Assembly: GCA_963965975.1 (NCBI GenBank)
Contig: OZ014414.1
Location: 4,315,501-4,379,500 of the forward strand
Direction: 5' to 3'
Source: Xestospongia bergquistia
Taxonomy: Eukaryota; Porifera; Demospongiae; Haplosclerida; Petrosiidae
Length of the DNA: 64,000 nt
Part shown: positions 30,465-56,474 of the stretch, piece after piece
How positions within the stretch are numbered: position 1 is the first letter of the stretch
Layout of the letters: each line of letters begins with the position of its first letter
Notes under the pieces: generated by a model
What the model was told of the DNA's origin: nothing
Database searches by the model: none
The model's input: the letters and a program-made list of their open reading frames with translations, nothing else
Program-made: the position numbers and the translations under genes

Positions 30465-30475
30465 CCCTTTTCGCG

Positions 30476-30492
30476 CTTGCCCATAAAGCAAG
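30476..30492. promoter_or_regulatory. Subterminal hairpin, left end of piggyBac-1
   Basis: CTTGC and GCAAG flank a seven-base loop just inside the left terminal repeat. It differs in sequence from the right-end palindromes but sits in the same relative place, so it may bind transposase; this is inference. Confidence 0.5.
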
Positions 30493-31110
30493 TAATTACT
30501 GCCAACGCACGAGTATTTTCAGGGTTGGAGTGGTTGCGTTTAAGCTCTTGTATCATCTCTAAACTGTCTCCTAGAAGTTTAGCTGTTTCAAGTTTGCTTC
30601 AATATGGATACCTGGATGTTTTGTTCTTCTAATGAATTTTGTATTCGTCGTCTACAAGGTAAGCATTATGTTATAACTACGCACACATTGTAAATGACGT
30701 ATAAAGCATCTTTCAAGAGTCCCTATTTTTTTTTTATTTGAAATAGACTTAGATGATAGTAGGAATGAGTAGAATGTTTCTTATTTCTTCGTTGCAGTGT
30801 TTTTTTGCGTTGTAGTACTAGTTCTTTGAGTATGCGTGGACTTCTGTTTTTGGAATGTACTTATCTTGTGGTTGTAAAATAGAACAATTAGGCATTTTTG
30901 AGGATAGTGAAATAGGTGATCACTTGCTACAGTGTAAGGTTATTAGATGAACAAAAAGCTTCAGCCTTAGTATGTTGCTTTTGTGTGTAGCAAGACATGT
31001 GAAGCTTCTAGTAAGATGTATCATAATTACAAACCACAATTTCAAGACAATAGTTATACAATGCAATACAACACAGTACAAACAGTGACAAGGAAGTAAT
31101 ATTTATATAG

Positions 31111-31116
31111 TTTATT
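31111..31116 (-). promoter_or_regulatory. Possible poly(A) signal AATAAA of the piggyBac-1 transposase
   Basis: TTTATT on the plus strand reads AATAAA on the minus strand and overlaps the last base of the transposase stop codon TAA. In such AT-rich sequence the hexamer may be coincidental. Confidence 0.35.
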
Positions 31117-33083
31117 TATGTAGCTAAATGATAATTAACAAGTTCGTGGTAACGTTCAAAACAAATGTCAGGGTGTAATGGTGGATTATGTGTGCATGTT
31201 TTACAATAAAAGATAGTGTCATGTCTTTGTCCTCTTTTAGCATTGTTGCATACAATACACCTATGTCTTGACTGTCCTCGTTCAATATAATGACGTCCCT
31301 CGAACCTCCCCTCCAACCTGGTAGGCCGCATGAGCTGTCGTCTTACATCTCCTACAGGCAACCCCTCACACAATCCAACTACAAGCTTACGCCGATAGTC
31401 AGAATGTGACAAATGATTTGAGGAAGTTGCCTTATAGAGGATATAAGAATTCACAAGGCTGACCTCCAGCAACCAGAACATGAGCTTCCTCCACCACTTG
31501 ATACTCCTCCTTCCAAATGAATAGTAACATCCATACTGATCAGCTATATCAACTCCACCCATGCTCTGGTTGTACTTGTCAACAACCAGAGGTTTCTCCC
31601 TTGTTTCTCCACGGTGACCTCGAACTGTCGTCATTGACCCCTGATAGACAGTGGAGATCATTACTGTTGGCTTCCCTTTGTCCCTCCATGCCAACACCAA
31701 TTTCTTTCTATCTCTCCACGCCTTAGTTTCTCCCTTGTTCAATTTGAAACTTTTGCCTCTTACCACACTTGGAAGCTGTTGCCGAGTCCTAACTAATGTC
31801 CCAGTGTAACCAGTGTTACACCTCTCTAGCTCATCAACCAAAGGGACACTAGAATAGAGCCGGTCAGCATAAATATGATGACCCTTGTGAAGATAATTTT
31901 CAACAAGAGCCAACACTATCTGGGTGAGGCTTGGGAGTTCAGGGTTACAATTTGACAGATATATGTCCTTTGTCTCACCTCCAGTGTACGGGATTATATT
32001 GAGAATAAACCCTGTAGCACTATCAGCAAGAACAAAGGACTTGAGGCCCCATTTAATCGGTTTCAGTGGACAATATTGGCGAAAACCAACCCTACCCTTG
32101 AAACCAACAATTGTTTCATCCACTGAAATCTCACGTCCAGGGTAGAAAACACTCTGAAATGTTGTAAGCAGTTGATCGAGAAGAGGCTTAACTTTGTCAA
32201 TTCGTCGTAGTCTTGTTGATGTTGTGTCTTCTCGTAGATGTAACATCCAGAAGATTTCTTCAAATCGGTTACGTGGAAGAACATCATGAAAGAATGGTAT
32301 ATAACACTCCCATCATGTCTTCCAATAGCTAGCTCGTTCCGGGCAGTGCATTACCCCCATGTTTATAATAACCGCCAGGACCGCCTTCATCTCTTCTGTG
32401 GTGACTGGTCTCCACTTCACCCATCTGGATTTTGGAGTTAATTTTCCACCTCTCTCCTTCTCAGCAATAACATCACCAGCATACTCATTTGTACCATCAA
32501 CAAGCATCTGAATTATTACGTCATTAAAGAAAAGAGAAAAGAAATCCAGTGGGGAAGAGTCTGCTGATAGTGAAATTTTTGGTCCTGGCTGTTCCATGAA
32601 TGGGATAGCTGTTGGTGGAATGTCAGCATGGAGGCCATCCACCGGTATCCACGGTTCAGCTCCATCACCTCCTTTCCCGTTACTATTACAACCACCTCGT
32701 CCCCTAACACCACTGTAACAACCACCTCGTCCTCTACCACAACCTCCACGTCCCCTGCCACGCCTATCACGACCTCCACGTACACTTCCACTACCACTTA
32801 CTATTACAGGTAAGTTTTATAATGATAATACAATATATTGCAAAGTAATTTTTATCTTACAATTCAATTGTTTTTTTTCAGTCTCATCAACCACAACAAT
32901 ATTATCAGCTACTACATCAATTTCATCATCTATATATATATATAATTTTTTGCTTTATTGAAATAAATTATAATTAAATATTATAATACCTAAGTCTTCA
33001 TCAAAAATGTCACTAAAATCACTCTCATCATCATCACTAAACAGCCTTACAATAACATCTTCTGTGGTCAACTTATCATCCAT
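31116..33083 (-). pseudogene. piggyBac transposase, three exons, single in-frame TGA
   Basis: Proposed exons on the minus strand are 33083-32990, 32929-32861 and 32800-31116. Introns begin GTATTA and GTAAGA and end TATAG and AATAG, and the phases agree across both junctions. Exon 1 starts at ATG 33083 and encodes an acidic N-terminus (LFSDDDESDFSDIFDEDL). Exon 3 opens with a Gly/Arg-rich stretch, then the DDE_Tnp_1_7 fold. Catalytic Asp candidates are in SVDETIVGFKGR, HIYADRLYSS and GGVDIADQ, the last giving the third Asp plus the Asp three residues on. The C-terminus is a Cys/His zinc-binding domain (RCIVC...YCKTC...HPDICFERYH). One defect is visible: TGA at 32313-32315 after ASYWKT, with the same frame continuing through WECYIPFF. 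About 615 codons in all, near the usual length. Read-through or an assembly error could mean it is still functional. No host role is implied. Confidence 0.9.
32643..32800 (-). other. Gly/Arg-rich (RGG-type) segment in the piggyBac-1 transposase
   Basis: In the transposase frame this stretch encodes repeated RGG/GRG tripeptides with interspersed Cys (for example GRGRGGCGRGRGGCYSG). It lies between the acidic N-terminus and the DDE domain. RGG motifs are known to bind nucleic acids; that role here is inferred. The reverse strand reads as a Thr/Ser-rich ORF, which I take to be a shadow of this composition. Confidence 0.6.
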
Positions 33084-33232
33084 TGTCTAATGTTTTCACA
33101 GCTGCTAACTAAGGTGTTTTACGGTATAAGGGAGTGGTTTATTAAAGTAAAATTGGAAAAAAGGTCATGTTCTGCCAAATACTGAAGTTTCTGGGTAAAA
33201 CGATCAACGTACGAGATGTTATATACACGAAA

Positions 33233-33294
33233 CGCATAAATGCGTCGTCGGCGCTGGTGAACAATCAGCCACCGACGCATAAATGCGTCGGTGG
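33233..33294. promoter_or_regulatory. Paired subterminal palindromes, right end of piggyBac-1
   Basis: CGCATAAATGCG occurs at 33233-33244 and 33276-33287, 43 bp apart. The second is the core of a perfect 26-bp palindrome (33269-33294, arms CCACCGACGCAT). It lies 11 bp inside the element's end, a position suited to transposase binding. The other piggyBac ends in the window have the same layout with different sequences. Confidence 0.75.
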
Positions 33295-33305
33295 CGAGGA
33301 AAGGG

Positions 33306-36300
33306 TTAAGTTAAAGACTTTAGAAGGTTTAGACTATTAAGAGAAGTTTATAAAGTAAACTGCTCAGGCTAAAGGACTTTATAGAACTAACTAAATAAAC
33401 AGCTATTAACAGTTTAGTAAGTTAGTTTGCATTAACGCTCTAAAGTCTTTAAGTTAAAGACTTTAGAAGGTTTAGACTATTGAGAGAATTTTATGAAGTA
33501 AACTGTTCAGTATAAAGGACTTTATGACACTAACTAAATAGACAGCTATTAACAGTTTAGTAAGTGAGTTTGCATTAACGCTCTAAAGTCTTTAAGTTAA
33601 ACACTTTAGAAGGTTTAGACTATTGAGAGAAGTTTATAAAGTAAACTGCTCAGTCTAAAGGACTTTATGGCACTAACTAAATAAACTGCTATTAACAGTT
33701 TAGTAAGTTAGTTTGCATTAACGTTTCAAAGTCTTTAATTTAAAGACTTTAGAAGGTTTAGACTATTGAGAGAAGTTTATAAAGTAAACTGCTCTGTCTA
33801 AAGGACTTTATGGCACTAACTAAATAAACAGCTATTAACAGTTTAGTAAGTTAGTTTGCATTAACGCTCTAAAGTCTTTAAGTTAAAGACTTTAGAAGGT
33901 TTAGACTATTGAGAGAAGTTTATAAAGTAAACTGCTCAGTCTAAAGGACTTTATGGCACTAACTAAATAAACAGCTATTAACAGTTTAGTAAGTTAGTTT
34001 GCATTAACGCTCTAAAGTCTTTAAGTTAAAGACTTTAGAAGGTTTAGAATATTGAGAGAAGTTTATAAAGTAAACTGCTCAGTCTAAAGGACTTTATGGC
34101 ACTAACTAAATAAACAGCTATTAACAGTTTAGTAAGTTAGTTTGCATTAACGCTCTAAAGTCTTTAAGTTAAAGACTTTAGAAGGTTTAGACTATTGAGA
34201 GAAGTTTATAAAGTAAACTGCTCAGTATAAAGGACTTTATGGCACTAACTAAATAAACAGCTATTAACAGTTTAGTAAGTTAGTTTGCATTAACGCTCTA
34301 AAGTCTTTAAGTTAAAGACTTTAGAAGGTTTAGACTATTGAGAGAAGTTTATAAAGTAAACTGCTCAGTCTAAAGGACTTTATGGCACTAACTAAATAAA
34401 CAGCTATTAACAGTTTAGTAAGTTAGTTTGCATTAACGCTCTAAAGTCTTTAAGTTAAAGACTTTAGAAGGTTTAGACTATTGAGTGACGCTTATAAAGT
34501 AAACTGCTCTGTCTAAAGAACTTTATGGCATTAACTAAATAAACAGCTATTAACAGTTTAGTAAGTTAGTTTGCTTTAATGCTCTAAAGTCTTTAAGTTA
34601 AAGACTTTAGAAGGTTTAGACTATTGAGTGAAGTTATAAAGTAAACTGCTCAGTCTAAAGGACTCTATGGCACTAACTAAATAAACAGCTATTAAGAGTT
34701 TAGTAAGTTAGTTTGCATTAACGCTCTAAAGTCTTTAAGTTAAAGACTTTAGAAGGTTTAGACAATTGAGTGACGCTTATGAAATAAACTGCTCTGTCTA
34801 AAGAACTTCATGGCACCAACTAAATAAACAGCTATTAACAGTTTAGTAAGTTAGTTTGCTTTAATGCTCTAAACTCTTTAAGTTAAAGACTTTAGAAGGT
34901 TTAGACTATTGAGTGACGCTTATAAAGTAAACTGCTCTGTCTAAAGAACTTTATGGCACTAACTAAATAAACAGCTATTAACAGTTTAGTAAGTTAGTTT
35001 GCTTTAATGCTATAAAGTCTTTAAGTTAAAGACTTTAGAACGTTTAGACTATTGAGAGATGTTTATAAAGTAAACTGCTCAGTCTAAAGGACTTTATGGC
35101 ACTAACTAAATAAACAGCTATTAACAGTTTAGTAAGTTAGTTTGCATTAACACTCTAAAGTCTTTAAGTTAAAGACTTTAGAAGGTTTACATTATTGAGC
35201 GAAGTTTATAAAGTAAACTCCTCAGTCTAAAGGACTTTATGGCACTAACTACATAAATAGCTATTAAAAGTTTAGTAAGTTAGTTTGCAGTTAACGCTCT
35301 AAAGTCTTTAATTTAAAGCCTTTAGAAGGTTTAGACTACTGAGAGAAGTTTACAATGTAAACTGCTCTGTCTAAAGGACTTTATGGCACTAACTAAATAA
35401 ACAGCTATTAACAGTTTAATAAGTTAGTTTGCTTTAATGCTCTAAAGTCTTTAAGTTAAAGACTTTAGAAGGTTTAGACTATTGAGAGAAGTTTATAAAG
35501 TAAACTGTTCAGTCTAAAGTACTTTATGGCACTAACTAAATAAACAGCTATTAACAGTTTAGTAAGTTAGTTTGCGTTAACGCTCTAAAGTCTTTAAATT
35601 AAAGACTTTATAAGTTTTAGACTATTGAGAGAAATTTATAAAGTAAACTGCTCGGTCTAAAGGACTTTATGACACTAACTAAATAAGCAGCTATTAACAG
35701 TTTAGTAAGTGAGTTTATATTAATGCTCTAAAGTCTTTAACTTAAAGACTTTAGAAGGTTTAGACTATTGAGAGAAGTTTATAAAGTAAACTGCTCTGTC
35801 TAATGGAGTTTATGGCACTAACTAAATAAACAGCTATTAACAGTTTAGTAAGTTAGTTTGCATTAACGCTCTAAAGTCTTTAAGTTAAAGACTTTAGAAG
35901 GTTAAGACTATTGAGTGAAGTTTATAATGTAAACTGCTCAGTCTATAGGACTTTATGGCACTAACTAAATAAACAGCTATTAACAGTTTAGTAAGTTAGT
36001 TTGCATTAACGATCTAAAGTCTTTAAGTTAAAGACTTTAGAATGTTTAGACTATTGAGAGAAGTTTATAAAGTAAACTGCTCAGTCTAAAGGACTTTACG
36101 ACACTAACTAAATAAACAGCTATTAACAGTTTAGTAAGTTATTTTGCATTAACGCTCTAAAGTCTTTAAGTTAAAGACTTTAGAAGGTTTAGACTATTGA
36201 GAGAAGTTTATAAAGTAAACTGCTCAGTCTAAAGGACTTTATGACACTAACTAAATAAGTAGCTATTAACAGTTTAGTAAGTGAGTTTATATTAACGCTC

Positions 36301-37027
36301 TAAAGTCTTTAAGTTAAAGACTTTAGAAGGTTTAGACTATTGAGAGAAGTTTATAAAGTAAACTGCTCTGTCTAATTGACTTTATGGCACTAACTAAATA
36401 AACAGCTATTAACAGTTTAGTAAGTTAGTTTGCATTAACGCTCTAAAGTCTTTAAGTTAAAGACTTTAGAAGGTTTAGACTATTGAGTGAAGTTTATAAT
36501 GTAAACTGCTCAGTCTATAGGACTTTATGGCACTAACTAAATAAACAGCTATTAACAGTTTAGTAAGTTAGTTTGCATTAACGCTCTAAAGTCTTTAAGT
36601 TAAAGACTTTAGATGGTTTAGACTATTGAGAGAAGTTTATAAAGTAAACTGCTCTGTCTAAAGGACCTTATGGCACTAACTAAATAAACAGCTATTAACA
36701 GTTTAGTAAGTTAGTTTGCATTAACGCTCTAAAGTCTTTAAGTTAAAGACTTTAGAAGGTTTAGACTTTTGTGAGAAGTTTATAAAGTAAACTGCTCTTT
36801 CGAAAGGACTTTATGGCACTAACTAAATAAACAGCTATTAACAGTTTAGTAAGTTAGTTTGCATTAACGCTCTGAAGTCTTTAAGTTAAAGACATTAGAA
36901 GGTTTACACTATTGGGAGAAGTTTATAAAGTAAAGTGCTCAATGTAAAGGATTTTATGGCACTAACGAAATAAACAGCAATTAACAGTTTAGTAAGTTAG
37001 TTTGCATTAACGCTCTAAAGTCTTTAA
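33306..37027 (+). repeat. 143-bp satellite continued, about 26 monomers
   Basis: The monomer split by piggyBac-1 resumes at the TTAA (33306) and runs in the same orientation and phase to the second piggyBac left end. Variants TTGAGTGACGC and TTTGCTTTAATGC are shared with the 26-30 kb part. This supports one array before insertion. Confidence 0.97.
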
Positions 37028-37577
37028 CCCTTTCACGGGCAGTTGCGCAATTTTGCGCAGGCGAATGTAATTATTGAGTGGGCGGTAGTGCAATTTTGCG
37101 CTGCAGCCATTACCAGGACACCTAGACTTTTTTTTGAAAGCAACAACGCGAAAGCATTTGTAAATACTCGTTTGCAAAGCTAAAGACACAGCGAAGGCAT
37201 CATCGCTTCGTAAGGCAGAATGTTCATGCAGTTGCCTTCTGTAACAGACCTCCAATTGATAGCTCCACCCAAATAAATTTACAGGATATGATTATTTCAT
37301 TATGAGATGTGTCCAAGAAAACCTTCGTTGTGCACTTTGTTTACATCGTTTGGCTTAGAACAAAGTATCAACAGACTCCCCACACAACGAAGAGATCAAC
37401 TGTATGCTCATAAAGATGATCAGTCGAGTTCTTCTGTTTCAGATATGGCTTCGAAATGTAAGCGTTTTTTGTCGTAGTATAGTACAGAGTTGAGCTTTCA
37501 TTATACGGCTTTTCTTGTTGTTATGGTAAGAACAACAACCTATATATCCTGTCACACTAGTTTGATTTTACAGAAGA

Positions 37578-38746
37578 ATGCACAGTCGGTTTTCTAGGAA
37601 GTATGAGAATGGTTATGATCTACCTGACATCAGATATGAAAAATGGAAAAAAATATTCCATCCTGAAGAATTATCTTTAGATGCTACAGCATGTAAATCC
37701 AGTGATGGAGACATCAGTCTCAGTGAAGTAGATGAGAATAGTAAGTGATACAGCCTGAGGTTAATTATACTTTGAATTTATGGCTTGCTATTTTAGAAAG
37801 TGCACTAGAACAGTCACCAAATGTTCTCAAATTTCCAGTATGTGTAATGTAGATATATATTTTAGTATTTTTGAGTTAATTATACTTGTTACAGGGAGGA
37901 AGAGATGTACCAGAAGTACTAGCAAGAGAAGTGAAGAAGAGATAGGACTCTATGAATATGACAAGAATGGACTCAGTGATAATGGTATGTGACATTATAT
38001 TATAATTAACCCTTTAATAGTGGCTTGCCATTTTAGAAACTACACTAGAGCAGTCAAAGACATTACCTAAAAATTCTCAAATTTCCAGGATGTGTAATGT
38101 ATATATATTGAAGTATTTTAAAGTTAATTATCCTTGTTACAGGGAGGAAGAGATGTACCATAAATACTAGCAAGAGAAGTGAAGAAGAGATAGGACTCTA
38201 CGAATATGACAAGAATGGACTCAGTGATAATGGTATGTGACATTATGTTATAATTAACCCTTTAATAGTGGCTTGCCATGTTAGAAACTACACTAGAGCA
38301 GTCAAAGACATTACCTAAAAATTCTCAAATTTCCAGTATGTGTAATGTACATATATTGAAGTATTTTAAAGTTAATTATCCTTGTTACAGGGAGGAAGAG
38401 ATGTACCAAAAGTACTAGCAAGAGAAGATAAAAAAAGATAGGACTCAGTGAATATGACAAGAATGGACTCAGTGATAATGGTATGTGACATTATACTATA
38501 ATTAACCCTTTAATAGTGGCTTGCCATTTTAGAAACTACACTAGAGCAGTCAAAGAATAACCTGACAACCAGTATGAAAATATTCACAATATAATAATAC
38601 AATTCATGTATTTCATTACAGAAAAACTATCAGCATGTTCTAATAATTTATGTTTTCACACTAAAGCGACTAATTGGGTGGAATGTGAAAAATGTTTCCA
38701 GTGGTACCACATGGTATGTCTTGGGATCAAGAAAGAAAATCACTAA
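37578..38746 (+). pseudogene. Spliced gene remnant ending in a PHD finger
   Basis: Exon 1 (ATG 37578 to 37740, donor GTAAGT) encodes a Lys/Glu/Asp-rich segment. Three tandem copies of a 90-nt exon follow at 37895-37984, 38143-38232 and 38391-38480. Each has acceptor TTGTTACAG and donor GTATGT, and each encodes RRKRCT...EEEIGLYEYDKNGLSDN. The last exon starts at 38622 after CATTACAG and encodes CSNNLC...NWVECEKCFQWYH followed by MVCLGI, then TAA at 38744. That is the C..C-WYH-C pattern of a PHD zinc finger, a reader domain for histone tails in known proteins. Phases match: each repeated exon is phase 1 to 1, so duplication keeps the frame. The third copy has TAA at 38429, so the complete reading is broken unless that exon is skipped. 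It could be a captured host gene or an accessory element protein; I cannot name it. Confidence 0.65.
37737..38530 (+). repeat. Tandem 248-bp exon-plus-intron duplication, three full copies
   Basis: The exon ends at 37984, 38232 and 38480 are exactly 248 bp apart. The intron sequence between copies (TAATAGTGGCTTGCCAT, CAAATTTCCAG...TGTGTAATGTA) repeats with few changes, so whole exon-intron units were duplicated recently. Confidence 0.92.
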
Positions 38747-39307
38747 ATTTTGTTTGTTTTATGTGTGACATATAATAATTAACTACTAGACTTTTTGTAG
38801 TAAAATTATTTTTTCATGCACAGTGAATTTGAATAATTAATAAACAGTATTTGTGATTGTCAAGTTTGAGTTAATAAATATCAAGAACTTATCACCTACT
38901 TTAGAAAAGAACTTCTCTTAAATGTCCGTTTATTCGTCCATGAGTTCATGTTTTCAAAGAGATGTATATTCAGAACTGTACGTAGAAATTTCTCCAAATT
39001 TTGACAGTTAATTCTTTACATATTATATACTGTTCAAAAGCAGAGATAATGTTCAAGCTATAATTGTTATCAAGATATGGTCATCGTTCAAATCTACATA
39101 AGAATGTCCGTTTTATCATGATCTCAAGTGTACAGGATATATGCTTGTAAATTGTGGAAAAAGGTTTCTTTTTCAGTATATTCTTTGCAATAACTATATG
39201 ATGGATTGGGGCACTCGAAGCTGGTGTCGAAAGTCAGCTTCGAATGCTCTGTTTATTTAAAAACAGTAAAAACACCAGAGTGTCCGATCATTGAGCCACG
39301 CCTCTAA
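38747..39307. other. AT-rich spacer with one hairpin
   Basis: No ORF or repeat family is recognised. A 13-bp arm hairpin with one mismatch (GCACTCGAAGCTG and CAGCTTCGAATGC) lies at 39211-39247 with an 11-nt loop. Satellite resumes at about 39308. Confidence 0.6.
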
Positions 39308-40033: not shown

Positions 40034-40827
40034 TACTCTGTCTGAGTTGAGAAAAGCCCTTTATTAAAAAAAAGGTGTTTTATGCATGGAATGTAACGTG
40101 AGGTATTTCCTCGCCTGTTAGCGCTGAAGTACGTGTTAAGTGTATTCGTTATTTGTTCACGTGGATGTCATGCGAACACACCACGTTTTTTCTCGTGCTT
40201 GTAAGTGGAGAAAGATTCCGATCACAAACAAAGGAGGTTGCTGTGAATGTCTATGAATATTTCGAGGAACTTGGCAGGCGCAAACGAACTGAAGGATCTC
40301 TGAAACAAACCTGTGATGCCCCAGGACTTTCACGTTCCAGTATCAATCTGACAGTTCTGATGACGAATGATTTTAGACATTTTCAGTTTTCCTTATTTGT
40401 CAAAAGGTTTTTTTCAAAACCATGTTGGCTTTATAGCTGCCCAAAATTGCAAAAGACGATACCTGGTTATCATTTTAATAGTATAATTGATACAAAGGCA
40501 TTTATTTTTATAATTAGAATTGTAATTTTGACTTGCCACGTGATAGTCGGCTGGCTTCTCGGTGATAGTTGGCTGACTTTTCGAGGTGAAAATCGATTTT
40601 TGTTATCTGCTCGAAGGTGTGCAATTTAAAGTATGCAAAAGGGATGCCATTCAAAATGTATGGAGTTTTATAGTTTGATACTTTATCGTAGCGCTAGAGA
40701 GCCAAATTTTATATATAAAATGCACGTTTGCAAGCTGAATCGATTGGTGCAAGTCCCATGTGGATAGCACGTAAAACGGCAAAGTTATTCACACGTCTGG
40801 GTGGCTTTTCTCAACTCGGACAGAGTA
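40034..40827 (+). mobile_element. Tc1/mariner-like element, 794 bp, TA target duplication
   Basis: Terminal inverted repeats of 25 bp with one mismatch open TACTCTGTCTGAG at 40034-40058 and close at 40803-40827. TA flanks both ends (40032-40033 and 40828-40829), splitting a satellite ACTAACTAAATAAAC. A TA duplication and short TIRs are typical of Tc1/mariner. The element is too short for a full transposase and is probably non-autonomous. A second, truncated inverted copy is at 56066-56394. Confidence 0.88.
40153..40629 (+). pseudogene. ORF with possible transposase N-terminal remnant in the Tc1-like element
   Basis: A 158-codon ORF. Residues 23-62 (FRSQTKEVAVNVYEYFEEL, then GRRKRTEGSLKQTCDAPGLSRSSIN) resemble a helix-turn-helix DNA-binding head of Tc1/mariner-type transposases, where a basic stretch precedes a short SRSSI recognition helix. 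After about residue 66 the sequence loses any recognisable pattern and no DDE/D catalytic block is seen. The resemblance is by pattern only. It is probably a truncated leftover rather than a working protein. Confidence 0.45.
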
Positions 40828-40829
40828 TA

Positions 40830-40985
40830 AATAAACTGCTATTAACAGTTTATTTGTTTGTTTGTGTTAATGCTCTGAAGTCTTTAATTTAAAGACTTTA
40901 GAAGGTTTAGACTGTTGATTGAAGTTTATAAAGTAAATTGCTCAGTCTAAAAGACTTAAAGGGACTAAATATATAAAGGGACTAT
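40830..40985 (+). repeat. Satellite monomer right of the Tc1-like element, direct orientation
   Basis: TAAATAAACTGCTATTAACAG continues the interrupted monomer and runs one unit to AAGGGACTATTGG, where orientation switches. Confidence 0.85.
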
Positions 40986-43070: not shown

Positions 43071-43248
43071 TGAACCCTTTAACGGGTGGTTGCGTAATTA
43101 TGAGCAGGCGGATGCAATTATTGAGTGGGTGGAATCGCAATTTTGCACAGTAACTATTACCGAGGCACCTGGACTGTTTTTCGAAAGCAAGAACGTGAAT
43201 ATGATTGCAATCACTGGTTTGTAAAGCTATCAACATGGCTAAAGCGTC

Positions 43249-45165
43249 ATGGCATTGACATGCAGAAGGTTTATACAGTTGCCTTCTGACCCAGACCTCC
43301 TTTTACAGTGTATTGATGGTGCTGAAAGTGACTATTCAGACAGTGATTTCTACTGCTACATTGATGAAGAAGAAGCACTGACAGATCCTTTGCAAAGCCA
43401 TTTACTAGCAAGGCTGACTTCTGAAAGCTTTGTAATAAATGTAACTCTTCAGCTCCACCTTTACCAGCAAGAAGCAGTTTCCTAGCTCCACCTACACCCA
43501 CGGATAAGATGATTTTACACACATGTACAAAATAATAATAATTATTGTAGTTCATCCATTGGTTGCCACCTCTCCAGCAACAGCTTTGCCCTGTACTAGC
43601 ACTACTGCTACAGCTAGCCTACCTATAGTTAACTAAAGACTACCAATAATAGCAAAGTAACTTTATAGTTCATCCATTTACTGCATCACCTGGGCTTACT
43701 CTTGATATAACCAACAAACCACCACTTGCTTTCTTCAATCTATACTTTTCATCAGCAGTAAAAGATTTGATCTTTGTGGAAACAGCTACCTATCCTGTGT
43801 CAAATTGAATCTTACTTGCATGATCATCCCAACGCTCTTGGTCATGACTGGAGTAGAAATCTGATAAAGCATGAGGAAGTTGACCCATTACTAGCCATAA
43901 TAATTACAAAGGGACTAGTTAGATATCTGTCTGTGAGGTATTCATTATAACCAAGGAAATAGATTGATATGAATTGCAAGTTTTATTTATTACACTTACT
44001 TGTAATTGTAATTTTATTAGGAAGCCCTAAAAATTTGTGAATTTCCTGTACAACTTACTTATTTGTAGATCATACTGGAGCAGCAAATGGTCATTTCATA
44101 GTGATATAGTCAGTCATATCATGCAGAAGGTTTGAATTATTGATGAAATCCTGATCAGCTTAACGAGTCATTCTAGTTGGTTTATATTCCCAATAGAGAA
44201 ATTGCTGTTGATGAGAGTATCATTGGACACAAAGGAAGACTCTCGTGGTTCTAGTACATGCTCAAGAAGCCCACTAAATGGGATATTATACTTACTATAA
44301 TGGTTGTTAACGAGTCATACAGGAAAAGAGAAGATGGTGTCCCTGAGCAAGGGCTAGCGTACAAAGTGATCTCATGTCTCCTTTATCAATAAGTGGATAT
44401 CATGTGTGTACCAATATACACTTTTCGCTGAATCAGAAGGGATTGAGTAGAGAATTTCAATTAGTAAAATTAACAAATGGTAAAAAGTAACAATCAACTG
44501 TACTTACGTTAGCCTAAAATGTAAGATGTAGGTTAAGTCTATTCTTATTATGCAACAGATGGATTTTCGTGTCCGAAGTGGTCTGACAAGCTAGTGGTAC
44601 ACATGTTATCAACCTTGCATAATGAAAATATGATAGATAAGCGGAGGAGAACCAGAGCAGTAGATGGAGGAGTAGACGTGGCAAAAGTAGTTGAAGAATA
44701 CAATACGATATGGGCGGAGTCGACAAGTGCAATCAACTCCTACTATATTATGGATATGTACGCAGGTCAGGCAAGTAGTGGAAGAAAGTATTATTTCACT
44801 TATTTGATGTATCCATTGTTAACACCAATATTTTGCACAATATAGTTGCTGAAAACCTTTACCACACATTGGCAGCCGGATACTAGACGGTCATAAATAA
44901 CCAGTTGACAGAAGGCACATTGCCTCAACAACAGTACTTCCAATGAGATTGAGCGAACATGGATTTCCAGAACCTGTTCAAAAAGATGCACCTTATGGAG
45001 TACGTCCCAGTCTAATGTATGCAAGGCCCGAGGAAAAAAGATCACAAAAACAGTACCAATGTAACATTTGTAAAACTCATTTGTATGTACTCCCATTTTT
45101 TAAAGATTACCATACCATACCAAATTACATTATGAATACTAAGAATCATCCTCATATACATCAAT
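43249..45165 (+). pseudogene. piggyBac transposase pseudogene
   Basis: Fragments in order: an acidic N-terminal ORF from 43249 (ESDYSDSDFYCYIDEEEALTD); about 43680-43790, PLAFFNLYFSSAVKDLIF, matching the DDE_Tnp_1_7 start; about 43860-43930, a helix like EVDPLLAIIITKGLVRYLS; about 44190-44280, REIAVDESIIGHKGR with the first catalytic Asp, then KKPTKWD; about 44690-44830, reading in shifted frames as MGGVDKCNQLL and VLFHLFDVSIVN, with the later Asp pair; and about 45050-45090, a Cys-rich YQCNICKTH tail. Several stops and frameshifts separate these blocks, and the second Asp region is not recognisable. It is dead as a protein. Together they support a plus-strand piggyBac gene. Confidence 0.75.
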
Positions 45166-45319
45166 AACAATCTTTGTGTCTAGACTTTATGTACACTTGT
45201 GTAATAATATGTATATACATTGTCATGAATCGTTCCAAATGGCCTTACGATAGTCCAATTTGATCATATACGATTTCAATAAGATTGTTAAGAAGAAAAA
45301 TACAAGACTTCACACTGGT

Positions 45320-45392
45320 GTTGAAGAAATCATTAAACCTGTGATGATAGAGGACTACAATCAATACATGGGTGGGGTCAATCTAAGTTAAG
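45320..45392 (+). pseudogene. Second piggyBac transposase scrap
   Basis: This reads IKPVMIEDYNQYMGGV before diverging into AT-rich repeat. It duplicates the motif already present near 44690 and lies downstream of the Cys-rich tail, so it comes from another piggyBac copy or an internal duplication. Confidence 0.6.
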
Positions 45393-45411
45393 TCTAAGTT
45401 AATCTACTAGA

Positions 45412-45438
45412 TTATATATATTTAATTATAATTACATA

Positions 45439-45474
<36 letters not shown>

Positions 45475-45482
45475 AATATATA
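45412..45482. repeat. AT microsatellite
   Basis: (TA)n and ATATAC runs, imperfect. Confidence 0.9.
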
Positions 45483-45796
45483 TTATCTATTCCTGATAAC
45501 AAGAAAACACACACACTTACATTATACTTACATCAGCAATCAATTATAATGTATTGTTTCACTTTGCCATACTGTGTGTTGTGTCTATGTACACGGTTCT
45601 CTAACTGTCTCTTTGTATGTGTATTATAATATATTGCTCCACTTTGCCTGACTGTGTATTGTGTCTATACATACATGCTTCTTTTCCTCTCTGTGTGTAT
45701 ATGCACTTACATTATACATACACTACCTATCAGTTTTAATATATTCCCTGACTGTATGGTGTCTCTACATGGACATACGTCTCTTCCTTTCTGTGT

Positions 45797-45841
45797 TTGT
45801 GTGTGTGTGTATGTGTGTGTGTGTGCGTTAGTGGTGTGTTT
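45797..45841. repeat. GT microsatellite
   Basis: GTGTGTGT runs broken by TATG and CG inside a T/C-rich stretch (45540-45840) with repeated ACTGTGT and CTCTGTGTG words. Confidence 0.85.
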
Positions 45842-46009
45842 AGCAGTGGGTCTTTATAGAAGATACTATATTCACCTAGTTATAAATCATCCAAAAGGAA
45901 GATTACAAGTTTCACTTTAAGTACTATCAGCAAAGAAATGGCAGGCAAAACAGTAATATTATTACAAGAAAGAAAACTTACCTTGCTTTCTTTCCCAATT
46001 GAAAGTTAA

Positions 46010-46260
46010 CTCCACCCAAATAAATTGACAGGAAGTGATAGTGAGGTGTGTCAAAGAAACCCTTTGTTGTGCACTAGTTTACATTGTTTGGCTTAGAACA
46101 AAGTATCAACAGACTCCCCACACAACAAAGAGATCAACTGTATGTTGATCATTAAGTGTTCGTAGCATACTACAGAGTTGAGCATCCATTATATGGCTTT
46201 TATGGCTTTTCTTGTTGTTATGTAGCAACATCAACCTACCTACCCTGTCACACTAGTAAC
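46010..46260 (+). repeat. Copy of the piggyBac-2 internal region
   Basis: CTCCACCCAAATAAATT, CATTGTTTGGCTTAGAAC, CAACAGACTCCCCACACAAC and CCTGTCACACTAG match 37260-37560 in order. It marks the distal part of piggyBac-3 or a related element. Confidence 0.85.
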
Positions 46261-48090
46261 TTACCTGAAAGCATCATCTTGTTGCTAGAGTAAGCTTTTA
46301 AATCGTTGCTATTGTTGAAAAAGCATTATTGGAAAAGTAGCCGCCCATGGGCGTGATTACAGTTAATTTGCCACGCCTGTCAACTAAGAAAAGAAGCATG
46401 TCAGATAATGAACTTATTAGGACTAAAAAGCAACGACTTTGAAATGTGACAAACTTGCAAAGGTACTTCCAAAGATCCGAACTTGATTCTTTTTGAACAG
46501 GTAATTCCTGACACAATGAAAGCATGACTAGTTGTAAAAATTGATCAGGAAGAGCATGGAAAGGATAACACTTAGTAGAGCATCACTTTCATCTAATGGT
46601 TTCATTTTCTTGTTATTATTCACCAGCTAACTGTACTAATTTAGTGTGCAAATTCTTCAAGGGTTGATGCTTGGGAGACAGACCTATAAAGAAGAATTCA
46701 CAACCATCAAATAGTCTATTGACTGTTGGGCACAAGTTAAGTTGACTAATCAATATTGAAAATAATTGATGGAGATACAAAGTTATTTGTGGCTCTATCT
46801 GTTTTATGATAACTTTTAAAATACAATGCAATAGCTTCTAAACTAAACATCAACCTTTTTTCACTTAATGGATATTATTGTTTAATATTGATATAATATG
46901 TCCAAAGTTCAGTTTCAATGTACAATTACTGGAAAAATCATCAGGACTGAATTCATCTGACAGTTTGGTTGTATCTATGAAAAGTAGAAGTGTGTTTCAT
47001 TGTGACTATTGTTAAACTCACCAATTAGTTTAAGTTCCTGATATACATGAGCAACAAGTTCAGTACAAATTAATGAACTGAAGTTATCTTTGTAGTTTTT
47101 GAGAAATTCCAAGTATTCATCATTAACATTTACATTTACTGCAGACAATCAAATCTATTTGTCTCTTTCATACGGTCTTCCTTGAAGCTTCTTACCTACT
47201 TAAAATGTAAATAAAAATTTTAATTAATTATTTCGGTAGCTAACCTTCAACATATCTCACACATTACTTGTCGTTGCTCCTGTTAATTGATAAATTGCAA
47301 CACGATCATACCAGCCAGAGAAAATTTTGTTCTTTAGAGGGAAAACTTCCACTCCTTTATGGACTGTTCCCATATCAACATTAACAAGCCCCACCTTATT
47401 AGTACTGGACTCCCAACCCAAGTGGAATATGGAGGTCGTAATATATATATATATATATATATATATATTTCAAATATTTACACAACTAAACATATTTACT
47501 TACCAATCCAACGTGTGAAAAAACAGCTCCAACAAATATTTAATAATTGCTCCAGAACTTGTCGTCCCTGAAACAAATTATCTCCAGTTACAAATTTCAT
47601 TATATGCCTTTGTGGAAAAATCAGGTGAAGGTCTAATGTAATGTATGATCATGTGAATTATATTACTGAGGACTAACGCTATCTGAGATATTAAAGGTGG
47701 AGGACCAGTAGCTACAGGAGGTAATAAGTGGCAAAGCATGATGAAATGTATCAGGATGTAAATGAATTGGATTTGCTAGCAACTCCTAACTCTTTTTTCA
47801 GACATGATCCAATGTAAATGTATACATTGTTAAACTATGTTGCTCTAGTGTCTCTGCTTCTGTAATCATTCTATGTTGCTCTGGTGTCTCTGCTTCTGTA
47901 ATCATTCTAACTTCTCGAGATGAATACTTGATGACTGCTTCAACTTTCTCTGCAAATTTCAGTGCTTGCAAACATTCTGGACTGTATGAAACCTTCATAC
48001 AGCAACACATTCATTATCTCCATAAAATATTCTGGTAACATCTGAAATGATATGAACATCTGAATGAGTGTCATTAAATTGAGCTACATC
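46261..48090 (-). other. Possible minus-strand exon fragments, unidentified
   Basis: Several minus-strand reading frames look more protein-like than their surroundings: 46616-46831 (LCPTVNRLFDGCEFFFIGL), about 47270-47415 (KVGLVNVDMGTVHKG followed by AIYQLTGATTSNV) and 47798-48010 (SPECLQALKFAEKVEAVIK). The last contains a duplicated 13-residue segment, RMITEAETPEQH. GTAAGT on the minus strand near 46262 could be a splice donor. Stops lie between the fragments and I cannot build one frame-consistent model or name a family. It may be a host-gene relic or part of an element. Confidence 0.3.
47440..47469. repeat. TA microsatellite
   Basis: Uninterrupted (AT)n of about 28 bp. Confidence 0.9.
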
Positions 48091-48094
48091 TAGT

Positions 48095-48280: not shown

Positions 48281-48289
48281 TGTATTTTA

Positions 48290-50326: not shown

Positions 50327-50496
50327 ACTTCGATAGCCACACCCATTAAATAGTTTGGATGTGGTTTATTTTGACCACACCTCATATTTTAATTAATGCT
50401 CCAGGTAGTCTAGGAAATTAATGCATAGCTGCAAGCACCACACCCAATTATCAAGCCACGATAGCGACACCCATTAATGCTCTACATAATCTCATT
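50298..50496 (+). repeat. Short direct repeat, two copies about 128 bp apart
   Basis: GCTGCAAGCACCACACCCA, then CGATAGC and ACACCCATTAA, occurs at about 50300 and 50428. Confidence 0.75.
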
Positions 50497-50673
50497 TCCC
50501 TCACAAAAGCAGACTAACTAATCTCTTGTGGCTTCCTCGGCTTTCTCTCTGGAAGATATACTCACCTTTATAGTTGTATTCTCGATACTTACCTTTACTG
50601 ACTACTACAAATTGTATAATTGGGTACAATATATAGAGTAGTATAGATACAGACACACCATTTTATCATAAAT
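50497..50673. other. Unassigned unique sequence
   Basis: T/C-rich then AT-rich; no ORF or repeat recognised. Confidence 0.4.
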
Positions 50674-50717
50674 ATGTAATACTACCAAATGTAACACTGC
50701 CAAATGTAATACTACCA
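50674..50717 (+). repeat. Left inverted repeat bounding the exon-like array
   Basis: TAATACTACCAAATGTAACAC followed by TGCCAAATGTAATACTACC is the reverse complement of 54715-54757. Confidence 0.75.
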
Positions 50718-51838
50718 CTCATTAGATTACTTGTCAAAATTTACTGTATGTTGTTAACTTACTGCCCTGGCTCTTTGAGATAGAGGAATTTGAGTCTTGA
50801 TCCAGATGTCTTGAGCTTTGATCCACAAGTCCAGCGAAGCTACATTAATAGATGCATTATGAATTAATGTACTCTAGTACTGTATTCTGTTAACATACTG
50901 CCCAGCGTCTTTGAGATCGTGGAAAATCTTGACTCTTGATCCCAATATCCAGCGAAGCTATAGTAATAAAACAGAAATTGAGAGTAATGTGTATTATGAG
51001 TAATGAGTATTATGAATTATGTACACTAGTACTGTAAGCTGTTAACTTACTCCACAGACTCTTTGTGATAGAGGAATGTCTTGACCTTGATCCTGAAGTC
51101 CAGTGAAGCTACAGTAATAAAAGAGAAATTAAGAGTAATATGCAGTAATAAAAGAGAAAGTAAGAGTAATGATGTACACTACTACTGCATTCTGTGAACT
51201 TACTCCCCAGCGTCTTTGACAGATAGCAGAATGTCTTTGATTCTTGATCCCAATATCCAGTGAAGCTATAGCAATAAAAGAGATATATTTAAGGTTATGA
51301 TGCATTATGAATTACTTTATACTAGTACTGTATGATCTTACTCCATAGACTCTTCGAGATACATAAATGCCTTGAGCCTTACTCCCTAGACTCTTCAGAT
51401 GAATTTCTTGAGCCTTGAGCTTGATGTCGAGCAAAGCTATAGTAATGAAAAAGAGATTAGGAGTATTATGAATTAATGTATTATGAATTAAGACTTATTA
51501 AGTAATGCACACCAGTACTGTGTGCTGTTAACTTACTCCACAGACTCTTTGTGGTAGAGGAATGTCTTGAGTCTTCATCATGATGTCCAGTGAAACCATG
51601 GTAATAAAAGGAAAATCAAGAGTAATGATGTCTTTTTTAAGTAATATACACCAGTACTATATGCTGCTAACTTACTTCCCAGAATCTTCAGATAGAGGAA
51701 TGTCTTGAGCCTTGATCTTGACTTCAAGCGAAGCTACAGTTATACAAGAGAAATTAAGAGCAATGAATTACTTCATACTAGTACTGACTACTGAATGCTG
51801 TTGACTTACTGTCAAAAGTCTTTGAGATAGAGAATTGT

Positions 51839-52399
51839 CTAGCCTCGTACCCAGGCTTTCGCGATAGAAAAGAAAGCTTGGTAACTACTGCTTGTGTATG
51901 CGCTTAATTATTGTAAATTATGTTATATGTTCATATCATAATGACAACATTTTAAATTAAATGACAAGTAAATGGGTCAGGTTTATATTGATGACGTTTC
52001 ATTCACTATTGAGTTTGGGCATGTCTAGCTGAGTTTGTCGGTTCTGCAGAGATTTAATGAAAGCAAAAAGAACGACAAATTTGTTCAGTGCTGTTGGAAT
52101 ACAAAACCACACGAAAATATCTTTTCCATCATATATAGCTTCAATGAACAAGAGTTGCTCCTTTTAAGAAATAGATTTGGCATTGCAAGCAGCTTTAGAA
52201 CATACAGTAGAGCAGAAGAAAACTTTATATCACTGATACAAATAGTCTCATATTACGGGTAAAGGAATTTTGACGTCATAGTTGATGGAGGATTCATAGA
52301 GTATACTAGTTTCAAAGAAATCTGTGGAAATTAAATGCATGCACAAACAGTAGTTACCAGGCTTTCTTTTCTATCGTGAAAGCCTGGGTATGAGGCTAG
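51839..52399 (+). mobile_element. TIR element (MITE-like), copy 1, 561 bp, inside the exon-like array
   Basis: Long inverted ends: CTAGCCTCGTACCCAGGC on the left and GCCTGGGTATGAGGCTAG on the right, continuing inward through TTTC-GCGATAG and CAGTAGTTACCAGGC for about 60 bp. Each end folds on itself (CCAGGCTTTC and GAAAGCCTGG-type arms). Flanks AGAATTGT and AGAAATAT suggest an 8-bp (or 9-bp) target duplication, as in hAT or Mutator groups. Internal ORF 52035-52262 is unrecognised. Confidence 0.8.
52035..52262 (+). CDS. Small hypothetical ORF inside the TIR element
   Basis: 75 codons from ATG 52035 with a hydrophobic/charged mixture and no recognised motif. The second copy of the element (53878-54369) lacks much of this stretch, so the frame is not conserved. 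Probably not a real protein. Confidence 0.15.
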   Translation: MSVLQRFNESKKNDKFVQCCWNTKPHENIFSIIYSFNEQELLLLRNRFGIASSFRTYSRAEENFISLIQIVSYYG

Positions 52400-53877
52400 A
52401 GAAATATCTTGATCCTTGATCCTGACATCCAGCAAAGCTATTGTAATAAAACACAAATTAAGACTATGCTATATTATGAATTAATGTACAGTAATATCGT
52501 ATTTAGTTAACTTACTCTTCAGAGTCTTCGAAGTATAGGAATGTCTTGAGACTTGAGCCAGACATCAAATGAAGCTACAGTGATAAGATGCATTATCAAT
52601 TAATTTATACCAGTACTGTATTCTGTTAACTTACTCCCCCAGCGTCTTGAGATAGCAGAATGTCTTGATTCTTGATCGCAATATCCAGTGAAGCTATAGT
52701 AATAAAATAGAAATTGAGAGTAATGTGTATTATCAGTAATGGGTATTATGAATTAATGTACACTAGTACTGTATGCTGTTAACTTACTCCACAGACTCTT
52801 TGTGATAGAGGAATGTCTTGAGCCTTGTCCCTGAAGTCCAGTGAAGCTACAGTAATATAAGAGAAATTAAGAGTAATATGCAGTAATAAAAGATAAAGTA
52901 AGAGTAATGATGTATTATGACTTAATGTACACTACTACTGTATTCTGTGAACTTACTCCCCAGTGTCTTTGAGATAGCAGAATGTCTTGATTCTTGATAC
53001 TGATATCCAGCGAAGCTATAGTAATAATAATGTGTATTATGAGTAATGGGTATTATGAATTAATGTACACTAGTACTGTATGCTGTTAACTTACTCCACA
53101 GAGTGAGACTCTTTGTGATAGAGGAATGTCTCAAGCCTTGATCCTGAAGTCCAGTGAAGCTACAGTAATAAAAGAAAAATTAAGAGTAATATGCAGTAAT
53201 AAAAGAGAAAGTAAGAGTAATGATGTATTATGACTTAATGTACACTACTACTGTATTCTGTGAACTTACTCCCCAGTGTCTTTCAGATAGCAGAATGTCT
53301 TGATTCTTGATCCCAATATCCAGCGAAGCCATAGCAATAAAAGAGATATTAAAGGTAATGATGCATTATGAATTACTTTATACTAGTACTGTATGATCTT
53401 ACTCCCTATCGAGATACATGAATGCCTTGAGCCTTACTGCCTAGACTCTTCAGATGAATTTCTTGAGCCTTGAGCCTGACGTCGAACAAAGCTATAGTAA
53501 TGAAAAAGAGATTAAGAGTATTATGAATTAATGTATTATGAATTAAGACTTATGAATTAATGTACACTATGATTGTATTCAGTTAACTTACTCTTCAGAC
53601 TCTTTGAGATATAGGAATGTCTTGAGCCTTGAGACTGACATCAAGTCAAGCTATAGTAATAAAAGAAGTTAAGAGTAATCGTGTTTCATGAATCAATGTA
53701 ACCTAGTATTGTATTCTGTTAACTTACTTGACAAACTCATCGAGATACAGGAATGTCTTCATCCTTGACCTCTGACAACCAGCGAATCTATTGTAATAAA
53801 AGAGATTAATAATGCATCATGAATAAATTTATACTAGCACTGACTTACTCCCAAGAGTCCTTGAGATGGAGAAATGT

Positions 53878-54369
53878 CTAGCCTTGTACCCAGGTTTTCG
53901 CAATAGAAAAGAAAGCCTGGTAACTACTGCTTGTGCATGCGTTTATTGTAATTTACGCAATATACTGACATCATAATGGCAAGATTTAGAATTAAATGAC
54001 AAGTAAATGGCTGGGTTTCTATTGATGACGTTTCATTCACTACTGAGTTTAGGCATGGCTAGTTGAGTTTGTTGGTTCTGTAGATACTTAATGAAAGCAA
54101 AAAGAGCGACAAACATGTTCAGTGTTGTTGGAATAGAAAACCACACGAAAACATCTTTTCCATCATTAGCATAGAGTAGAGCAGAAGAATACTTTCTATC
54201 AGTACTACAAATAGTCTCACATTGTGATTAAAGGAATTTTGACATCAATAGTTGACGGAGGATTCCTAGAGTATACTACTTTCAAAGGAGTCTGTGGAAA
54301 TTAAATGCATGCGCTAATAGTAGTTACCAGGCTTTCTTTCCTATCGCAAAAGCCTGGGTACGAGGCTAG
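53878..54369 (+). mobile_element. TIR element, copy 2, 492 bp, same position in the array unit
   Basis: Same ends (CTAGCCTTGTACCCAGG and CCTGGGTACGAGGCTAG) and internal sequence as copy 1 with a central deletion. The flanking octamer AGAAATGT is perfect on both sides (53870-53877 and 54370-54377). It interrupts the same point of the array unit, in the same orientation, as copy 1, and the following units also match. Confidence 0.88.
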
Positions 54370-54714
54370 AGAAATGTCTTGATCCTTGATCCTGATGTCC
54401 AGTGAAGCTATTGTAATAAAAAACAAATTAACAGAAATAATTAATTATGAATTAATGTACACTAGTATTGTATTCAGTTAACTTACTCTTCAGAGTCTTC
54501 GAAGTATAGGAATGTCTTGAGTCTTGAGCCTGAAGTATTATGAATCAATGTACACTAGTACTGTATGGTCTTAACTTACTCCCTAGACTCTTTTGAGACA
54601 GAGGATGTCTTGAGCCTAGTCCTGATGTACAGCGAATCTAGGGTAATAAAAGAGAAATGAGAAGGAATAATATATTTTACACTGACGTTAAAATATGTTA
54701 ATGACAATATTACA

Positions 54715-54757
54715 TTTGCAGTATTACATTTGGCAGTATTACATTTGGTAGTATTAT
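54715..54757 (-). repeat. Right inverted repeat bounding the exon-like array
   Basis: ATTTGCAGTATTACATTTGG then CAGTATTACATTTGGTAGTAT mirrors 50674-50717. Internally it is a 16-bp ATTACATTTGGCAGT-type tandem. Confidence 0.75.
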
Positions 54758-54899
54758 ATTTGTAGTATTAGTTTATGTCAAAATACCAGTTAATGTTATA
54801 CATTTTTATTGTTAATATACTTACCAATTGTTATTTCCTTCATCTGCATGTATGTGTGTGTGTGTATGTTTAAAATAATGTAATATTGTTAAGTTATAC

Positions 54900-56065
54900 A
54901 ATATGAATGTAACATTACACTGATATCTGTATACCTAGAAGGACAACAAATAATGTTACTTGAGTCTATCACGATGTAATACATTACTTTACCATGTACC
55001 GAGGAACATCATTCGCTCAGAAATACTGCAGGGAAGACTGCCAAATGACTTGGCTAAATGGAATGCAACATACTTTAGTAACCAGCATATTTACTTAATG
55101 AATATTACTCAGACTTGCAACATAGTACTAAATATACTTCTTACTAAAGTCAATATATCACAGAGAAAAGGACTAGTTTAAAAGTCAAAGTACTGCTTCT
55201 CTGACCATATTTGTTACTATTGTCTTTCCCTTTTGTTGTAGTCAAGAACATCATTATTTGAGATTTACTACAGAGGACACTGTCAAATGGTTTGGCTGTA
55301 TGGAATCCAGTTCCTTATTCTGTCTTGCTTAACAGCCCTGCAAAGGTAAAGTACTTACAAGTACAAAAACATAAGCTGACACTCATACAAAAATACACGA
55401 TATACTAATACACATGGAGTACCGCTACTCTGACCGTATTTATTTGCCCTTGGGCTGTAGCAAGTAACATCATTGTCTTGGATTGACTTGGCTGAAAGGA
55501 TATAAAGTCTGGTTGCTAAAATGAAGTAATGCACAAAATATACTGATTACTAAAGCCTATACCTTACAGAGAAAAGGACTAGTGAGATAGTATGTTTTAA
55601 AATGACTAGTTAATAACTTGTATAAACACATTCACAAATGATACAGCACACAACTCAAGACTAAATAACACAATATTCATATTTTATAAAGTATGTTGCA
55701 TAGATAACTTATGGTACACATATGATAATAATATTCATAACTATTGCAACACAATAACCAAATAATAATACAGTACCCATTGGTTGCTAAAATGAAGTAA
55801 TGCTGTCTAAGATTTCTAGTACAAACCTCTAGTACCAACCATTACAAGCTCATACTGAAACAAAAGTTGAGACAATGGAGGTAAATAGGCTTGTACTAAA
55901 TAGAAAAACTTGACTAATGTTATTCAGACATTGTATTAAATATACTGGTCACTAAATTCTATATACTACGGAGAAAAGGAACACTCAGATATGTTTGTAA
56001 ATGACTTACGACAGACTTAGTACAGACAACAGATGCACTAAAACTAAGAGATAAAGCTCAATGAA
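54900..56065 (+). repeat. Repeat family with NDLAEWN-type core, first part
   Basis: Cores at about 55037 and 55282 (CAAATGACTTGGCTAAATGG, CAAATGGTTTGGCTGTATGG), plus a partial near 55470. Shared flanks include TACTGGTTACTAAAG, TACAGAGAAAAGGACTAGT and TCTAAGATTTCTAGTACAAA. ORF 54960-55181 contains the first core (RNII...LPNDLAKWN). See the main array at 59098-64000. Confidence 0.75.
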
Positions 56066-56394
56066 CTATAGGCTGTCCAAGTTGAGTAGAGCCACACAGA
56101 TGTGTGAATAACTTTGCCTTTTTACGTGCTATCAACATGAAACTTGCACTATCGATTTAGCTCACAAATGCACATTTTATATATAAAATTTGGCTCTCTA
56201 GCACTGCGAGAAAGTACCAAACTAGAAAACTCCATACATTTTCAATGGCATACATTTCACAAACTTCAAATTGCACACCTTCGAGGGTTTAATAAAAAAC
56301 AATTTTTGCTTTGAGAAGTCACCCATCTATCACTTGGAAATTAAAAATTACAATTCTAATTATAAGAACAAATGGTATATTATAACAATTATTA
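56066..56394 (-). mobile_element. Truncated, inverted copy of the Tc1-like element
   Basis: Its end GGCTGTCCAAGTTGAG matches the right TIR of the 40034-40827 element. GTGTGAATAACTTTGCC, TATATATAAAATTTGGCTC, CTCCATACATTTTCAATGGC and ATTACAATTCTAATTATAA match the reverse complement of 40480-40827 in order. The homology stops where piggyBac-4 begins at TTAA. Confidence 0.85.
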
Positions 56395-56414
56395 TTAACC
56401 CTTTACCGACCAAG

Positions 56415-56474
56415 GTTGCAGATTTGCAACTTTTTGGAACATGCACGAAACGACCAAGGTTGCAAATTTGCAAC
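56415..56474. promoter_or_regulatory. Paired subterminal palindromes of piggyBac-4
   Basis: GTTGCAGATTTGCAAC (56415-56430) and the perfect palindrome GTTGCAAATTTGCAAC (56459-56474), exactly 44 bp apart. Both are preceded by CGACCAAG. Candidate transposase sites by analogy with other piggyBac subterminal repeats. Confidence 0.75.

Follow-up and report, generated by a model that had tools for sequence, protein, structure and literature searches.

The window analysed here is a 64,000-nucleotide stretch of the genome of the sponge Xestospongia bergquistia (C4:4315501-4379500, contig OZ014414.1), in which four piggyBac-type transposon copies, PB-1 to PB-4, were delineated. A 143-bp satellite array spans window positions 1-37027, and elements are inserted in it. 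This work concerns the ends of the transposons, namely the left end (LE), which is the end on the transposase side, and the right end (RE), together with the C-terminal zinc-finger domain of the transposase, the cysteine-rich domain (CRD). The PB-1 transposase runs from right to left, which places the LE of this element at 33305, and two palindromes lie just inside that end.

30461..33309, minus strand: PB-1 element including its TTAA duplications, with TTAA-CCCTTT and AAAGGG-TTAA ends and a PF13843 match with one stop
33272..33291, minus strand: PB-1 LE palindrome 1, CCGACGCATTTATGCGTCGG, dyad at 33281/33282, 24.5 bp from the tip
33232..33245, minus strand: PB-1 LE palindrome 2, ACGCATTTATGCGT, dyad at 33238/33239, 43 bp inward of palindrome 1
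31116..32246, minus strand: longest open part of the PB-1 transposase, 376 aa, with a zinc-finger CRD near 31130-31259
30465..30530, plus strand: PB-1 RE, in which palindromes at the LE positions are absent

The PB-1 transposase matched the PF13843 profile at 1.2e-54. The other three copies lie further to the right, on the opposite strand.

37024..37562, plus strand: PB-2 LE and the stretch common to short non-autonomous copies (96% identical)
37044..37059, plus strand: PB-2 LE palindrome 1, TGCGCAATTTTGCGCA, dyad at 37051/37052
37088..37101, plus strand: PB-2 LE palindrome 2, GTGCAATTTTGCGC, dyad at 37094/37095, 43 bp inward, with one arm altered
43071..46383, plus strand: PB-3, a decayed member of the PB-2 family, with its RE near 46383
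56395..58720, plus strand: PB-4 from its LE to beyond the transposase, with the open reading frame and the Pfam match at 57788-58258
56415..56430, plus strand: PB-4 LE palindrome 1, GTTGCAGATTTGCAAC, dyad at 56422/56423
56459..56474, plus strand: PB-4 LE palindrome 2, GTTGCAAATTTGCAAC, dyad at 56466/56467, 44 bp inward, with CGACCAAGG before the palindrome also repeated
58559..58690, plus strand: CRD of the PB-4 transposase, with the loop QLKWT

The TTAA duplication and the CCC tips were observed at both ends of PB-1 and at the LEs of PB-2 and PB-4, and are decayed in PB-3, whose LE lies at 43071 with TGAA in place of TTAA. No AAAGGG-TTAA tip marking an RE of PB-4 was detected within the window. 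The PB-4 transposase matched PF13843 at 2.8e-24, and a PB-2-type transposase was recovered by the same profile search. A sequence-only reading of this stretch had claimed four divergent piggyBac ends with paired palindromes; the pairs and their spacing proved real, but the number of families did not. PB-2 and PB-3 are one family, because PB-3 aligned at ~82-87% with an intact-looking PB-2-type copy across most of its length. PB-4 is one insertion spread by duplication, because the eight inspected places on C4 and C6 that carry it (the window's included) share an identical flank and are 98.3-99.9% identical over ~3 kb. Four independent families were therefore rejected, and the families in the window are three. 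The spacings given in that reading for PB-1 (43 bp) and PB-4 (44 bp) agreed with the measured dyads, and the PB-2 pair was likewise found, at 43 bp instead of the stated 45 bp or so. For PB-3, where a pair had been placed at 43091 and 43135, 44 bp apart, the expected dyads fall at 43098/43099 and 43141/43142, 43 bp apart, and only 4 of 10 arm positions pair at each, the palindromes being decayed and the 43-bp frame kept.

The architecture of the ends was then compared across the genome, for which 146.46 Mb in 21 contigs were searched with the PF13843 profile, giving at least 122 piggyBac transposase matches. Fifty loci among these were inspected, comprising the 30 top-scoring ones (L011-L040, with 1.5-kb flanks) and 20 others chosen by hand for variety (L053-L072, upstream stretches). 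An LE with a repeated unit was present in 42 of the 50, that is, in 27 of the 30 best-scoring loci (20 located via the tip TTAACCCT and 7 via tip-independent scans) and in 15 of the 20 others (10 via the tip TTAAC(C/T)C(T/A) and 5 without it); 12 of the 42 LEs were thus recognised by scanning for a palindrome or a repeated unit and not by the standard tip. Adding the PB-2 and PB-4 loci (L041-L052 and L001-L010) gave a set of 14 families, A to K, PB-1, PB-2 and PB-4, with the copies of the window represented by L032 (PB-1), L042, L002 and L010. Distinct flanks, taken as separate insertions, numbered nine in PB-1, eight in PB-2 (including PB-3), five in D, four each in A and B, and three in C. 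Positions below are counted from 0 at the first T of the TTAA beside the element, so that a dyad at 27.5 lies 24.5 bp inside it, and the shuffle statistics on the LEs cover 13 families, K being left out.

The LE unit consists of a core motif near bp 9-14 and a palindrome whose centre lies 24.5 bp from the tip, and this unit is then repeated, at 43 bp in B, D, F, G, H, I, PB-1 and PB-2 and at 44 bp in A, C, J, K and PB-4, thus in 13 of the 14 families; in E the repeat is 35 bp. The first dyad was located at 27.5 with a score of at least 5 in 12 of the 13 families (3.2 in I), and also in K, against a mean of 0.07 and a maximum of 2 in the shuffles. The mean palindrome profile of the 13 families peaked at the same position with 7.79, the highest value in 1000 dinucleotide shuffles being 2.64. 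The best self-similarity offset was 43 or 44 in 11 of the 13 families (1000 dinucleotide shuffles: mean 0.42, highest 4), the exceptions being E (35) and D, in which 87 (43+44) ranked best and 43 second; the match at 87 in D is a partial third unit. Ten of the 13 families had a second palindrome copy scoring at least 5, the others being H (4.3), C (1.1) and I (0). The core motif at bp 9-14 matched at the unit offset in 4.14 of 6 positions on average, versus 1.40 at other offsets (14 families), and bp 35-40 were near background at the unit offset (1.5). Single-base losses displaced individual copies (43.5 in L016 and L014; first dyad at 26.5 in L057). The palindrome word varied by family, with similar words in PB-1/E, F/PB-2 and I/J, which bears out the earlier proposal of a family-specific palindrome in a conserved frame, with the addition that some related families share a similar word. 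The claim of a common architecture likewise stood, although it had overlooked the repeating core motif, the unity of PB-2 and PB-3, and the restriction of the pair to the 5' side of the transposase, which was observed in the families with both ends seen.

The RE is organised differently. No palindrome was detected at the LE dyad positions of the RE in any of the eight families A-F, PB-1 and PB-2 (scores at most 1.8). The RE tip motif was repeated at 32/33 bp in five of these eight, this offset being the best in A, B and PB-1 and tied in PB-2 and F (P 0.0005, 2000 shuffles); in L026, a sister copy of the PB-1 element of the window, the motif recurred at 32 bp.

Comparable ends are known from the piggyBat transposon of Myotis lucifugus, whose transposase is the nearest solved one. 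The transposases of A, PB-1 and C matched piggyBat (9c0f) at 2.9e-53, 8e-56 and 2.5e-51, and Trichoplusia ni piggyBac (6x67) at 1.9e-31, 7.3e-32 and 8.4e-32, respectively, so that by sequence comparison all three tested are nearer to piggyBat than to T. ni piggyBac. Separate matches to the piggyBat CRD were modest for PB-1 (0.001) and C (0.011). The order of Cys and His residues in the CRDs was piggyBat-like, the last pair being CxxxxH and not CxxC; one Cys is missing in K, and the CRD of I was unreadable. As the CRD search pattern demanded the CxxxxH ending, only G, H, K and PB-2 are independent of that choice. In the piggyBat LE, an imperfect palindrome comes after each of three GCGGGA motifs (bp 11-16, 55-60 and 99-104), and the outermost palindrome is bound by two CRDs and contacted as duplex, whereas the RE has no such palindrome and carries its motifs at bp 12-15 and 44-48 (PMC11707139). 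Two dimers sit on the piggyBat LE, the inner one inactive, and around bp 25 the DNA of this end turns through more than 90 degrees, while the RE is essentially straight (preprint PMC13405395). The sponge LEs thus resemble that of piggyBat, in which core motif and palindrome repeat every 44 bp, and some of the sponge REs may resemble its RE, with core motifs 32 bp apart and no CRD palindromes. They differ in that the piggyBat LE comprises three units, of which the innermost is inhibitory, where the families here have two (with the partial third in D), and in that the spacing here is 43 or 44 bp, the motifs are others and some REs have a lone palindrome elsewhere. T. ni piggyBac, in which a CRD dimer occupies an LE palindrome at bp 17-33, centred near bp 25 (PMC7351741), shares the position of the LE palindrome, the TTAA target and the asymmetry of the ends; it differs in having one LE site in its minimal LE35, the same palindrome on the RE as well, another CRD fold and a more distant transposase. 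In that system, a 5-bp insertion in the RE cut activity by about half, and an extra CRD site on the LE increased integration about two-fold (PMC7351741). The human relics MER75, MER85 and Looper have inverted repeats below their tips, at one end only in MER75B (PMC12324416); their likeness to the families described here lies in these sub-tip inverted repeats. Relatives were confirmed in neither of two scans of viral contigs. The open-licence literature searched gave no report of a 43/44-bp spacing in several families, nor one of a CRD code, subscription work, including a large survey of piggyBac ends, being outside the scope of that search.

The sequences, their positions and spacing, the LE/RE asymmetry and the homology to piggyBat are direct observations, and since the LE units, the RE asymmetry and the transposase match piggyBat, the palindromes are read as CRD-dimer sites of a piggyBat-type LE. 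They are very probably docking sites for pairs of CRDs, each palindrome receiving the CRD pair of one transposase dimer, while the short motif just outside it would be read by the catalytic core. Two tandem dimer sites, 43-44 bp or just over four helical turns apart, would align two dimers on the LE, of which the outer, at the tip, would cut and join, and the inner would help to hold both ends together. The LE would be bent round the CRDs and the RE straight, with its tip motif repeated at 32-33 bp (about three turns) in most families examined; the two spacings together may reflect an asymmetric complex in which the LE is bent. The palindrome would have changed together with the CRD from family to family, and the positions would have stayed fixed. 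What we infer is that the sites are bound, that the DNA bends, that a tetramer forms and what each dimer does; recognition of the palindromes by the transposase is deduced from the piggyBat and piggyBac structures and from homology. Taken as a whole, we consider this explanation, from CRD-pair docking at two tandem LE sites and core-motif reading to the straight RE and the joint change of palindrome and CRD, highly likely.

Several observations weigh against it. The spacing in E is 35 bp in five loci (L036, L055, L056, L057 and L063), all on C2 and representing one or two insertions; the second copies of C and I are barely palindromes and that of H is weak; and the core-motif repeat is low in D and F (2/6). 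Lone palindromes do occur elsewhere on the RE (PB-2, 7.5 at 43.5; E and PB-1, 6.2 at 16.5), the 32/33-bp repeat of the RE is absent in C, D and E and merely tied in PB-2 and F, and its offset was fixed after family A and the piggyBat paper had been seen. The CRD of A matched that of piggyBat weakly (i-Evalue 5.1). An LE unit was not found in 8 of the 50 loci (L015, L038, L039, L053, L059, L067, L069 and L071); in L015 and L039 the homology to a sister copy begins inside the element, in L038, L053 and L059, of the PB-4 family, it ends short of the LE, and L071 has a possible 43-bp unit that scored no better than control offsets and was left out of the count. Family F was discovered via its palindromes, and its inclusion is therefore biased. 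The sequence-only reading had named families lacking a pair, or spaced at random, as evidence that would speak against it; such families were generally not encountered, the spacing of E and the weak second copies of C, I and H being the exceptions. As a separate observation, the 35 bp of E contrasts with the 43 bp of its sister family PB-1.

Paired palindromes are typical of operators, and the pair sits on the 5' side of the transposase where both ends were seen, so the palindromes might instead be operators or promoter elements of the transposase gene, bound by transposase or a host factor, with the spacing reflecting cooperative regulation. However, their distance is fixed to the tip (24.5 bp) and not to the gene, whose start lies at a varying distance, the core motif is repeated along with the palindrome, and the positions equal the CRD sites described for piggyBat and T. 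ni piggyBac. We consider this explanation unlikely, although an operator function could be an added role of the palindromes. An action through DNA structure, a hairpin or cruciform, rather than through the sequence read, would accord with family B, in which the arms match perfectly over as much as 10 bp, and with the discussion of such structures for the human relatives (PMC12324416); the arms are imperfect in several families, however, a CRD residue varies together with bases close to the dyad, and the piggyBat palindromes are contacted as duplex (PMC11707139), which leaves this explanation very improbable.

Equally little credence is given to shared ancestry or copying without function, by which the ends would be leftovers of recent duplication or the spacing coincidental. 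Some families do have similar words, counts are inflated by copies (PB-4 being one insertion), and the satellite too has two dyads 43 bp apart; yet dinucleotide shuffles failed to reproduce the pattern, unlike palindromes occupy one position, six families have 3 to 9 distinct flanks each, and six aligned transposases are 29-38% identical to that of PB-1.

The reading of the palindromes as CRD-dimer sites was extended to single residues. In piggyBat, R543 and E545 contact C19, G-19 and C-20 (PMC11707139), and both residues were placed in the loop R-x-E-T of the 9c0f chain via an inferred offset of 6. The residue matching E545 was acidic in A, B, E, G, H, K and PB-1, all of which have ACG at -7 to -5 in the outer half of palindrome 1, and non-acidic in the others, namely Q in C (GCT) and in F and PB-2 (GCG), T in J (GCA), L in D (TCA) and W in PB-4 (TTG). 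ACG hence accompanied the acidic residue in 7 of 7 families versus 0 of 6 non-acidic ones, an association with an exact probability, calculated by hand and ignoring relatedness, of 1 in 1716; family I, with its unreadable CRD, was left out of this table and of the tree. Of the 12 inner branches in a tree built from the C-terminal parts, 7 were weak. Both strong main clades contained acidic as well as non-acidic members, which implies at least two changes of the residue. The idea of covariation arose from the first families, so that the fit is partly by construction. The acidic residue of K was predicted in writing beforehand and then found, and the residue of PB-2 was expected from F but noted only afterwards; both are mild tests, because K and PB-2 have close kin in the set. 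It is conceivable, if somewhat doubtful, that the loop residue sets the half-site at -7 to -5 (an acid ACG, Q or T GC at -7,-6, L TCA and W TTG), that families gain independence by joint change of loop and half-site with the 43/44-bp LE and 32/33-bp RE spacings as a fixed ruler, and that the genome is a panel of mutually orthogonal systems.

The surroundings of the elements gave further observations. The consensus of the satellite has dyads at 37, 80 and 133, of which the first two, the strongest, are 43 bp apart; this agreement with the piggyBac ends was taken as an apparent coincidence and a link between the two rejected, the three best dyads being 43, 53 and 47 bp apart with odd-length centres. 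Copies of piggyBac lie in the TTAA of the satellite's central dyad, in the window (30461, 33306 and 37024) and in L012, L025, L035 and L049. On each of the contigs C4, C6, C10, C13, C7, C5 and C15, a single region contains the same piggyBac insertions over and over, all in one orientation and ~65-220 kb apart, and the window lies in the C4 region; the pattern looks like the outcome of duplicating giant tandem units that surround the satellite and may be pericentromeric, with several chromosomes coming to share them. Within the PB-2 region, a 248-bp unit is present three times in tandem (37824-38563), followed at ~38620-38750 by a stretch that by eye resembles a PHD-type zinc-finger exon. Also by eye, a stretch of ~800 bp at 40035-40830 has inverted ends CTCTGTC[TC]GAGTTGAGAAAAGCC and a 158-aa open reading frame, with a relative near 56065, beside PB-4, and a repeated foldback-like element with inverted ends CCTCGTACCCAGGCTTTCGCGATAGAAAAG lies at 51840-52400, 53885-54370 and 62590-62650.

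The closest known system is piggyBat, and the possible recognition code is the new part. Across the 14 families of this genome, the two-dimer LE described for one mammalian transposon would be the rule, and this suggests that piggyBat-type complexes are built in an old and general way. A 2021 paper reports no straightforward correlation of end organisation with CRD fold (PMC8086355), and the set of 14 families offers such a correlation. As sites and CRDs are paired in this set, a recognition code can be put to the test, and the set could furnish orthogonal gene-delivery systems.

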